Made by a program: the position numbers and the translations under genes | The notes under the pieces: model-generated | Seen by the model: only the letters and a program-made list of their open reading frames with translations | Told to the model about the DNA's origin: nothing | Database searches by the model: none | Virus record (IMG/VR): IMGVR_UViG_3300032284_000936 | Location: 1-38,341 of that record | Source: a virus | Length of the DNA: 38,341 nt | Direction: 5' to 3' (one strand) | Shown here: one piece after another, positions 16,942 to 22,458 of the stretch | Position numbering within the stretch: position 1 is the stretch's first letter | How the letters are laid out: the number at the start of each line of letters is the position of its first letter

Positions 16942-17126
16942 TTGATGACCGTGAAAATAAGGAAATGATCAAGCGGTTTAGGCGTATTTGGCTCAAGGAG
17001 TGGGAGGCTCAACATGATCCTTTTACTGCTTGGGAGTGGTGGTCTTCTGAAGAACAGAAGGCTAGACGTAAAGCAATTTACGATCAATATGAAAAGGGAA
17101 CTGAAGATGGAAAAGAGTTGCTTTGA
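16938..17126 (+). CDS. Small charged Trp-rich protein
   Basis: 62 residues from the ATG overlapping the regulator's stop (ATGA). Helical and highly charged, with five Trp residues in the stretch from KEWEAQHD to WEWWSSEEQ. No family recognised. Translational coupling puts it in the early rightward operon. Confidence 0.6.
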   Translation: MIDDRENKEMIKRFRRIWLKEWEAQHDPFTAWEWWSSEEQKARRKAIYDQYEKGTEDGKELL

Positions 17127-17487
17127 ATTGTTTTGGGAAGCATGGCCTAAAAGCCCCCGTAAAGCTTCTAAATCGATCTGTGAGAAGAAATGGAAGGCCA
17201 AGGGACTAGATAAGGATTGGAGACAGATACATAAGCACGTTACCTGGCTCAAAACCACGGATATGTGGCGAAAATCAGACGGTAACTTTATTCCTGCTCC
17301 ACTGGTTTATTTGAACCAGGAAAGATGGGATGGGGCTGAGATTCCAGAGCTAGAAATCACCGTGACTGTAGGGTACAAAGACCCTGCCCTCAAAAAGATT
17401 GAGGAGGATGCCAAAATAGCCACCCAAATGCCAGATGAAATAAAAAAACAACTGGCAGAAATAAAAAAGAAATTTTTGTCGGTATAA
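17107..17487 (+). CDS. Replication-protein-like C-terminal domain
   Basis: 126 residues from ATG 17107. FELFWEAWPKSPRKASK at the start, a central Trp-rich helix pair and FIPAPLVYLNQERWDG (about 62-77) match the FxxFWxxYPxK ... P-WLNxxRW domain found at the C-terminus of many phage replication initiators and helicase-loader-like proteins. Here it stands alone, without the winged-helix or DnaA-like N-domain, so it may work with a host initiator. The C-terminal 30 residues are a Lys/Glu helix. An upstream ATG at 17089 is possible. Confidence 0.7.
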   Translation: MEKSCFELFWEAWPKSPRKASKSICEKKWKAKGLDKDWRQIHKHVTWLKTTDMWRKSDGNFIPAPLVYLNQERWDGAEIPELEITVTVGYKDPALKKIEEDAKIATQMPDEIKKQLAEIKKKFLSV

Positions 17488-17488
17488 T
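17483..17488 (+). promoter_or_regulatory. Consensus -10 box before the structured RNA
   Basis: A perfect TATAAT at 17483-17488 overlaps the stop codon of the previous gene. I see no good -35 at 16-18 bases, so it would need an activator or be weak. Initiation would be near 17495, just before the predicted RNA fold. Confidence 0.45.
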
Positions 17489-17494
17489 CCAAAT

Positions 17495-17594
17495 CATTGT
17501 GGTCGTGCGCAATAGATTGAAGCCATTTAAGAAACCTTCTCTCCTGTACGCAGTACGGGGCACGACAGAGGAGGCTCCTTAAGTGGCTTTTTTT
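17495..17594 (+). ncRNA. Predicted pseudoknotted structured RNA of about 100 nt
   Basis: The fold is drawn from the sequence. The outer stem pairs 17520-17531 with 17578-17589 (12 bp, one G-U) and runs into seven U residues. The middle stem pairs CCTTCTCT 17535-17542 with AGAGGAGG 17567-17574 (8 bp, one G-U). The apical hairpin pairs CCTGTAC 17543-17549 with GTACGGG 17553-17559 around a GCA loop. The only large unpaired internal segment, GCACGAC at 17560-17566, is perfectly complementary to GTCGTGC at 17502-17508, giving a 7-bp pseudoknot. A -10 box lies just upstream. It could be a regulatory sRNA, a structured terminator or a cis element for the next gene. I do not recognise an RNA family. 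Confidence 0.65.
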
Positions 17595-17639
17595 ATTTCA
17601 CGATTACTTTCGTACCCTACACGAAAGAAGAGAGTCTGC

Positions 17640-17870
17640 ATGGACTGCCTAGGAGAAAACACCGCACTCTGTACACCCCAGAGCAAAATGCGAGTAGCGT
17701 TGATTAAGCGACTACTAAAGCACATAGGAACTCAGGTGAAACTAGCCTATGTGTATAAGCGAATTAATCCGTCCAGCGCACTTGGGGCCGTTTGTGTTGT
17801 AGAAACAATAAATGACCTGGAGAAGGCCGATAAGATTCTGTCTTATCACCCTAGGAGTAACTATGTCTAA
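17640..17870 (+). CDS. Small hypothetical protein after the structured RNA
   Basis: 76 residues from ATG 17640, supported by aagagag six bases upstream; a GTG at 17583 lies inside the terminator stem and is rejected, and an ATG at 17688 is possible. Mostly helical and basic (MRVALIKRLLKHIGTQVKLAYVYK) with a short strand GAVCVVETI. Two Cys near the start. Family not recognised. Confidence 0.5.
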   Translation: MDCLGENTALCTPQSKMRVALIKRLLKHIGTQVKLAYVYKRINPSSALGAVCVVETINDLEKADKILSYHPRSNYV

Positions 17871-17887: not shown

Positions 17888-18646
17888 ATGAATGAGTTGG
17901 CTCTTTTCGCAGGCATTGGTGGAGGAATACTTGGTGGACAGTTACTCGGATTTAGAACAGTCTGTGCAGTTGAATGGGAGCATTTTCCCTCAAGCATATT
18001 GCTCGTTCGACAAAACGCAGGACTACTCCCACCTTTCCCAATATGGGATGACGTTTCGACCTTTGATGGAAAGCCTTGGAGAGGAATTGTTGACGTTGTT
18101 TCGGGAGGATTTCCTTGCCAAGACTTGTCCGCAGCAAACCAAGGAGGAGACGGACTTGATGGAGAACGATCAGGACTCTGGACCGAAATGGGGAGGATTA
18201 TTGGCGAGGTTAGACCCAGATACGTCTTTGTGGAGAACTCTCCAATGCTCGTTAATAACGGACTCGGAAGAGTGCTTAGAGACCTTTCCCAAATGGGGTT
18301 TGATGCAAGATGGGGGATTATGGGAGCAGACACCGTTGGCGCACCCCACAGAAGGGAACGACTTTGGTTGGTTGCCCACTCCCGTAGCGACAGATTACAT
18401 GACAGGAAAACTCAATGGAATCGAATACAGGAACAAGAGATTCATCAGAACCAGCCTGACAAGTGGGACAGAGTTTGGAGCAAAACTAGCGGATGCGTTT
18501 CGCTTGATGACTACAAAAGCATTGCCACCGAATTTCTCGGAATGGATGATGGGTCTACCAATCGGGTGGACAGAATTAAAGCCTGTGGCAACGCCCAGGT
18601 GCCGACCTGTGCAGCAAAAGCTTGGAGAATTTTAAATGGACTATGA
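17888..18646 (+). CDS. dcm: DNA (cytosine-5) methyltransferase
   Basis: 252 residues with the C5-methyltransferase motifs in order: I FAGIGGG (7-13, SAM loop), IV GGFPCQD (73-79, catalytic Cys77), VI ENSP (116-119), VIII RRERLW (155-160) and X GNAQVP (234-239). The region between VIII and X that holds the target-recognition domain is very short (about 75 residues). No restriction partner is seen, so it is probably an orphan phage enzyme that protects DNA or alters expression. gggag precedes the ATG. A 744-base frame in +1 overlaps almost the whole gene. The local sequence is richer in G and C than the flanks, hinting at transfer. Confidence 0.93.
   Translation: MNELALFAGIGGGILGGQLLGFRTVCAVEWEHFPSSILLVRQNAGLLPPFPIWDDVSTFDGKPWRGIVDVVSGGFPCQDLSAANQGGDGLDGERSGLWTEMGRIIGEVRPRYVFVENSPMLVNNGLGRVLRDLSQMGFDARWGIMGADTVGAPHRRERLWLVAHSRSDRLHDRKTQWNRIQEQEIHQNQPDKWDRVWSKTSGCVSLDDYKSIATEFLGMDDGSTNRVDRIKACGNAQVPTCAAKAWRILNGL
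17892..18635 (+). CDS. Overlapping +1-frame gene inside the methyltransferase gene (candidate)
   Basis: 247 codons without a stop, from an ATG 4 bases after that of the methyltransferase to a TAA 11 bases before its end. The product starts MSWLFSQALVEEY, has MTFRPLMESLGEELLTLF (about 53-70), ETFPKWGLMQDG (about 129-140), a WLPTPVATD stretch and PNFSEWMMGLPIGW near the end. I have a clear memory of annotated phage proteins with the same signatures (MSWLYSRALVE, ETWPRWG-M-DG, WPTP, WMMG-P-GWT) near cytosine methyltransferases. They may be real overlapping genes or a conserved shadow of the enzyme's own sequence. Its stop abuts the next ATG. Not verifiable here. Confidence 0.45.
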   Translation: MSWLFSQALVEEYLVDSYSDLEQSVQLNGSIFPQAYCSFDKTQDYSHLSQYGMTFRPLMESLGEELLTLFREDFLAKTCPQQTKEETDLMENDQDSGPKWGGLLARLDPDTSLWRTLQCSLITDSEECLETFPKWGLMQDGGLWEQTPLAHPTEGNDFGWLPTPVATDYMTGKLNGIEYRNKRFIRTSLTSGTEFGAKLADAFRLMTTKALPPNFSEWMMGLPIGWTELKPVATPRCRPVQQKLGEF

Positions 18647-21771: not shown

Positions 21772-22037
21772 AAAAGCACGACAAACCTATTCCTCATAAG
21801 ACTACAGGCAAAGGCAAGACATACAAGCCCACAGACCAAGGCGCAGGTATGACTGCCAAGGGCAGAGCAGAGTACAACAAAAAGAATGGAAGTCATTTAA
21901 AAGCACCAGCACCAAATCCTAAGACTGATAAAGATAAGGGTAGAAAAGCATCATTTTGCGCCAGAATGGCTCCTATTGCAGAAAAAACCGAAAGGGGAAG
22001 CCGTGCTAGAGCCTCAATGCGAAGTTGGAACTGTTGA
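21768..22037 (+). CDS. DUF6321-like phage protein with a replaced C-terminus
   Basis: 89 residues. KPTDQGAGMTAKGRAEYNKKNG and KASFCARM belong to the DUF6321 family, which ends in an RARAS-RRWNC-like tail. Here the last 22 residues (after Met67, base 21968) end ASMRSWNC. They lie within the 5' part of a homing-type HNH gene, while another family-type tail, in good reading order, lies just after that gene (22459-22527). So the C-terminus was swapped by the insertion. The protein is probably still complete. Confidence 0.75.
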   Translation: MKKHDKPIPHKTTGKGKTYKPTDQGAGMTAKGRAEYNKKNGSHLKAPAPNPKTDKDKGRKASFCARMAPIAEKTERGSRARASMRSWNC

Positions 22038-22458
22038 AATTTGGGCTGATATTGCTGGATATGAAGGTAAATATCAAGTTAGCAATATAGGTCGGGTTAA
22101 ATCTTTAGCTAGATTTAGAAAAGGCAAAAACAATTCTAAAGTTCCTGTTCCCGAAAAAATAATGAAAATACAAATTAAGCAGCACTTTGAAAGACAAAGA
22201 CCTTATGCTGAAATTTGTTTAAGAAATGGAAATGAAAGATCAATTTCTGGCAAACAAAAGCTTGTACATCGTTTAGTTGCACACGCCTTTATTAAACCAC
22301 TAGAACCAGGTGAACAAGTTGACCATATCAATGGCATCCATAACGACAATAGAGTTGAAAATTTAAGGGTTATGAAAGCTATTGAACACGCAAGAATTCA
22401 CCCAATAGTTTTGAATCCTTTGCCTAGAAATGAAAATGGGCAATATATGTCGAGATAA
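22003..22458 (+). CDS. NUMOD4-HNH homing endonuclease
   Basis: 151 residues from GTG 22003 (aggggaa seven bases upstream); TTG 21976 is an alternative giving nine extra residues. EIWADIAGYEGKYQVSNIGRV is a NUMOD4 DNA-binding motif. LVHRLVAHAFIKPLEPGEQ, then VDHINGIHNDNRVENLR, is the HNH core with catalytic His in DHINGI. The gene overlaps the 3' end of the DUF6321-like gene and displaces that gene's original end, the typical behaviour of a free-standing homing gene. Confidence 0.92.
   Translation: MLEPQCEVGTVEIWADIAGYEGKYQVSNIGRVKSLARFRKGKNNSKVPVPEKIMKIQIKQHFERQRPYAEICLRNGNERSISGKQKLVHRLVAHAFIKPLEPGEQVDHINGIHNDNRVENLRVMKAIEHARIHPIVLNPLPRNENGQYMSR

Follow-up and report, generated by a model that had tools for sequence, protein, structure and literature searches.

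A phage RNA family with a co-varying pseudoknot and a second, mutually exclusive partner for one of its strands

Introduction

A densely paired segment of an IMG/VR virus record, flanked by a replication-initiation-like gene on one side and a DNA methyltransferase gene on the other, raises two questions: is it an RNA in its own right, and what might such an RNA do for the phage? The window, i.e., the whole stretch of 38,341 bases that was analyzed, comprises this record and contains terminase, portal and head genes. A sequence-only reading had described the segment as a pseudoknotted RNA with its own -10 box and terminator, and had offered two possibilities: a phage sRNA not described so far, or a structured element acting as terminator or leader of the following gene. 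Here we compare homologous phage loci, from which we establish the pseudoknot and its helices, a further pairing (X:Y), the strand, the single copy per genome, the linkage to a second RNA module and the allelic diversity.

Results

The RNA, termed module 1 (17493–17594, about 102 nt), is located on the plus strand, as are all features described below, immediately 3′ of the replication-initiation-like gene (17014–17487; PHROG 9474, E 2.2e-11). The elements proposed from the letters alone were all found in place: a 12-bp outer stem, P2 (17520–17531/17578–17589), an 8-bp middle stem, P3 (17535–17542/17567–17574), and a 7-bp hairpin, P4 (17543–17549/17553–17559), the length of which is highly variable in relatives. 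The segment GCACGAC (PKb, 17560–17566) is indeed the exact complement of GTCGTGC (PKa, 17502–17508). P2 runs into seven T residues (17588–17594), which would give the U-run of an intrinsic-terminator-like end; a long T-run is also present in the copies listed. The first reading had overlooked three components, namely the P1 hairpin, the second pairing partner Y and the leader termed module 2. P1 (17496–17513) consists of 5 bp (17496–17500/17509–17513) and carries the 5′ pseudoknot strand as its loop; 97.7% of its cells are paired, and its closing pair exchanges between UA and CG among homologues. Computed without the pseudoknot, the fold has an energy of –43.2 kcal/mol (z = –4.69), and none of 200 shuffled sequences was equally stable. 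Well-conserved sequence is limited to P1, the linker UUGAAGCC and P2, and the strands of the pseudoknot core are hypervariable. A conserved unpaired ligand pocket of the riboswitch type was absent from module 1, the most conserved bases being paired or situated in the short linker.

Relatives were collected in several ways. With the upstream protein as query, 80 phage loci were retrieved, many of which show the RNA directly 3′ of that gene, and pattern searches yielded 43 and 110 phage stretches that overlap in part. More than 100 distinct relatives occur in IMG/VR phages, with a single copy per genome. The covariance model R1 matched with at least 58 bits in 41 of 78 sources, some of these being its own building sequences. 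Among whole phage records, 25 of 35 matched, each with one full-scoring copy on the plus strand relative to the genes; additional matches on the opposite strand were weak mirror images of the P2 stem. A strict pattern search of bacterial and archaeal genomes (257 Gb) gave a single match (L129), which lacks both stem and U-run and was discarded as a chance hit. By blast against phages, plasmids and E. coli genomes, only one phage was found, the GenBank phage Manatee Spring (MW202484.1), in which the RNA-bearing region is annotated as hypothetical proteins. The hypothetical protein annotated over the RNA itself (L130 4032–4391, MW202484.1 33533–33892) is probably not a gene. A covariance-model search against Rfam had been suggested as a check. 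Except for tRNA, the window and 37 relatives gave no Rfam 15 match at gathering score, and permissive thresholds added only chance matches and tRNAs. A literature search, the coverage of which leaves out many journals, found no published description of the family.

The proposed structure was then scored on 37 copies, covering the 5 bp of P1, the 7 bp of the pseudoknot, 18 pairs of P2/P3, and P4. We found 95.0% of cells paired, compared with 37–50% for partners slid along the sequence and 79.6% after shuffling. Changes on both sides occurred in 27 of 34 pairs, and the covariation score amounted to 0.489 (0.190 when shuffled). The claim that so many coordinated pairings would be unlikely by chance was thus borne out. 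Within the pseudoknot, 6.97 of 7 positions were paired over 36 copies with 17 alleles, and none of 20,000 swaps performed as well. To guard against selection bias, we collected 88 distinct copies by the P2 stem alone, ignoring the pseudoknot. All 88 contained an exact 7–8-nt complement between PKa and PKb (22 alleles), one of them at an odd position that may represent a different pairing; among foreign combinations, only 8 of 462 reached 7 nt. One relative with a different P1 (L024) follows the same plan with a 9-bp pseudoknot. Independent variation of the complementary segments, or a lack of compensatory changes, had been named as grounds for abandoning the proposal; instead, the segments co-vary almost perfectly. 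Judged by this covariation, module 1 is a real RNA family and has moved beyond a prediction.

The pattern of substitutions also reveals the strand. In module 1, G·U outnumbers A·C by 100 to 15, and in the X:Y pairing described below by 68 to 13. Since G·U is in large excess in both, the pairing acts in the plus-strand RNA. An RNA from the opposite strand was ruled out by this bias and by the promoter, the minus-strand matches being mirror images of the P2 stem.

A perfect TATAAT is present just upstream (17483–17488), and the -10 box as well as the terminator-like end recur in relatives, but the -35 position of the window reads ATAAAA, with three mismatches, and is poor in several relatives, too. 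In many homologues the corresponding sites carry TTGACA and an almost perfect -10 box. The positions of both elements in relatives place the predicted transcript start within a few bases of the 5′ end of P1. At the other end, a GC-containing stem followed by a U-run agrees at the sequence level with an intrinsic terminator. We infer that the RNA is transcribed, terminated and read through.

Directly 3′ of the U-run we noticed a segment, Y, complementary to the 5′ strand and loop of P1. In the window, Y (CACGATTAC, 17599–17607) can pair with X (17499–17507), a portion of the 5′ strand, over 9 bp including two G·U pairs; elsewhere the duplex extends up to 13 bp (e.g., L119, L123), falls short of perfect pairing in many copies and is weak in a small number (L056, L069). 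Duplex energies of own versus swapped combinations were compared for 25 alleles, each represented by a single copy. X was specifically complementary to PKb (z –9.4) and to Y (z –7.5) in these permutation tests, which ignore phylogeny, a weakness that single copies per allele and the comparison of close phage pairs are meant to offset. The complementarity of X in the 25 alleles was near null beyond Y as far as +240, and likewise between –150 and –200; smaller signals at offsets –110 and –52 are due to overlap with P1 and PKb. The Y signal was replicated on nine later-found alleles (z about –3, at most 22 of 5000 permutations), a set in which it is modest by itself and in which one unrelated offset reaches z –1.8. 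Furthermore, two near-identical phages (L006/L007) differ at one position that has changed jointly in X (G/C), PKb (C/G) and Y (C/G). Y is no mere copy of PKb, as it often departs from it by changes that preserve pairing via G·U. X:Y and X:PKb are mutually exclusive. The energies of X:Y (–10 to –18 kcal/mol) and of P1 plus pseudoknot (roughly –9 to –17 kcal/mol) are similar, which is consistent with two states. X, a single strand with two exclusive partners, thus makes the RNA a candidate for a two-state phage RNA switch.

Although it is bound by two partners, this strand belongs to the most variable parts of the RNA: 118 distinct copies contain 35 pseudoknot alleles. In close phages, diversity peaks in the RNA unit and the adjoining flanks are almost identical. 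For instance, L005 and L006 share an identity of 1.00 upstream and 0.98 downstream, but only 0.67 within the RNA, and L048/L019 present a similar picture. Identity drops again several hundred bases downstream, so the RNA represents a sharp local exchange, one among others. Allele exchange looks like the simplest reading of these comparisons, and diversifying selection on the RNA unit is suggested as well.

Behind module 1, the copies inspected contain a further stretch of about 250–300 nt in which reading frames are broken. In the window this is module 2 of type A (17609–17862, about 250 nt), the commonest type, and an ORF that spans it (17583–17870) is probably not a gene, as its frames are broken in relatives. 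Type A showed 91.9% pairing and 34 pairs with double changes against 16–22 for slid partners, figures that are favoured because the alignment scored also supplied the structure. It ends in a conserved GGAG and the ATG of the next gene (17854–17865). Neither the window segment nor the homologous stretches matched Rfam. Types B, C, D and more have little in common with type A, and module 1 stays constant. Apparently unrelated large, structured-looking RNAs of types B, C, D, E and more follow the U-run directly in L002, L005, L112, L117, L131, L133, L158, L170 and others. The types were assigned by eye and with simple patterns, and some may be distant relatives, since loose blast clustering merged several of them. 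The slot after the U-run thus appears to be an exchange site for several apparently unrelated large structured RNAs. A short open frame (MNTEMLGEGRIET..., MNTMKSGAGRIEI...) that carries a GGAG of its own overlaps the 3′ end region of module 2 in some phages (L035 and L026).

The gene behind the leader varies from phage to phage. In the window it is the DNA methyltransferase gene (17888–18646; PHROG 363, E 3.4e-62), a RusA gene is present downstream as well, and an HNH endonuclease gene (21976–22458) lies further downstream in the same gene block. With no partner genes seen, we rejected the idea of a type III antitoxin or a CRISPR-like RNA. Scanning of the window proteins brought to light neither an integrase nor an immunity repressor, and lysogeny is no more than a possibility.

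Discussion

Of the two options offered by the first reading, the sRNA and the leader are probably both true: the RNA is phage-borne, stands outside Rfam 15, has a promoter at a recurrent position and a terminator-like end, and continues as a leader to the next start codon. We tentatively favour a self-terminating phage sRNA with a read-through leader, i.e., a regulatory RNA of two isoforms that would work like IsrK of the Salmonella prophage Gifsy-1. IsrK has its own promoter and terminator and occurs as a short and a read-through isoform, and its sRNA part pairs alternatively with a downstream complement inside orf45 of the same transcript (PMC4825925). In our model, the transcript would begin with the P1 hairpin, and most transcripts would end at the U-run of P2, giving an sRNA of about 100 nt. 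There, the P1 loop would be held by the 7 nt that bulge out between P4 and P3, and the resulting pseudoknot would be compact and sealed at both ends. Read-through transcripts would become a long leader, including module 2, for the next gene, and X would leave P1 and the pseudoknot to pair with Y behind the U-run, so that the two isoforms would differ in fold. The short RNA might then compete in trans for Y of the long RNA, in a manner similar to the action of short IsrK on its own read-through transcript. Because Y is transcribed after the U-run, X:Y should not be able to decide termination of the same transcript; it would only refold the read-through transcript or act between molecules. In the short RNA, X is tied up within the pseudoknot, so that pairing in trans would require unfolding. 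Nor does the sequence reveal any effect of X:Y on the ribosome-binding site, which is 250 nt distant. The model further assumes action in trans and an effect on the downstream gene. As that gene differs between phages, the conservation cannot be put down to one regulated target.

The diversity of the three co-varying strands bears on a second explanation, which we consider possible but somewhat unlikely: X, PKb and Y could form an allelic self-recognition code, by which the RNA of a resident phage acts only on the transcript of the same phage. Self-recognition by RNA has precedents in the plasmid incompatibility RNAs and in the immunity RNAs C4 of P1 and CI of P4. The 35 alleles, the joint changes of X and Y, and the pair L005/L006, which differs by a third in the RNA between nearly identical flanks, would fit such a code; recombination alone could spread old alleles, however, and the scanned window proteins gave no integrase or immunity repressor.

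That module 2 is structured and is joined to module 1 by X:Y might instead indicate one structural RNA of about 400 nt, with transcription continuing past the U-run and X:Y serving as the native closing helix of an ornate fold like that of GOLLD or ROOL. Six tRNA genes adjoin the RNA in a 62-kb phage contig (L170 7027–8044, same strand), which would suit this idea. We regard it as improbable, given that the conserved strong stem and U-run predict termination, that several apparently unrelated types of module 2 accompany a constant module 1, and that neither GOLLD nor ROOL was matched.

The few unpaired bases of module 1, the 5′ and 3′ ends of which both lie within helices, could be expected of a decoy sRNA that binds a host or phage protein, with Y merely preventing the read-through RNA from adopting the knot fold. 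A protein site should be conserved in sequence, however, and beyond P1, the linker and P2 little is; no partner protein gene is linked either, and we find this explanation very doubtful. An ordinary intrinsic terminator between two operons with complementarity by chance would account for the strong stem and U-run between two genes, but is excluded by the covariation of pseudoknot and Y.

Our favoured reading of an sRNA with read-through leader places the RNA within a known kind, the phage leader-borne sRNA with self-complement. C4 of phages P1 and P7 and the CI RNA of P4 are small RNAs carried on leaders and complementary to a different part of their own transcript; processing, not a terminator of its own, releases C4. 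The RNA described here shares with C4 a complement, Y, in the downstream leader, but neither the window nor the relatives matched RF01695, and methyltransferase and RusA genes take the place of an antirepressor operon in the window. In the pistol ribozyme, the loop of a 5′ hairpin likewise finds its partner in a segment flanked by two further helices. There, the partner precedes the last hairpin, whereas here it follows P4 on the 3′ side, and no Rfam match was obtained. With IsrK, the RNA has in common, at the sequence level, the promoter, the terminator and the downstream complement of the sRNA in the read-through transcript, and it leads into phage genes. It differs by its pseudoknot, none being mentioned for IsrK (PMC4825925), by a complement that follows the terminator directly instead of lying within orf45, and by forming a family of many alleles with no Rfam match. 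RydC is a small pseudoknotted host sRNA as well, whose seed pairs with target mRNAs through Hfq (PMC4337610); here, in contrast, the two strands that form the pseudoknot are hypervariable, and a second partner in cis exists for the 5′ one. GOLLD and ROOL are structured RNAs likewise associated with phages, lake metagenomes and tRNA neighbourhoods (PMC12286853), but they are far larger, and their Rfam models found nothing in the window or the relatives.

Conclusions

These results add an RNA family that has no Rfam entry, is present in single copy in many uncultivated phages and displays unusually clean covariation. To our knowledge, no switch has been described before that combines a pseudoknot with three co-varying strands and with cassettes of alleles. 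It is conceivable, though we think it unlikely, that specificity resides in RNA only: the code of X, PKb and Y would be swapped as a cassette between phages that are nearly identical elsewhere and would decide by self-recognition on the use of a read-through RNA with a large, structured and interchangeable module, resulting in phage incompatibility or immunity groups. If the alleles indeed constitute a recognition code, they would represent a rare case of RNA-encoded specificity between phages.
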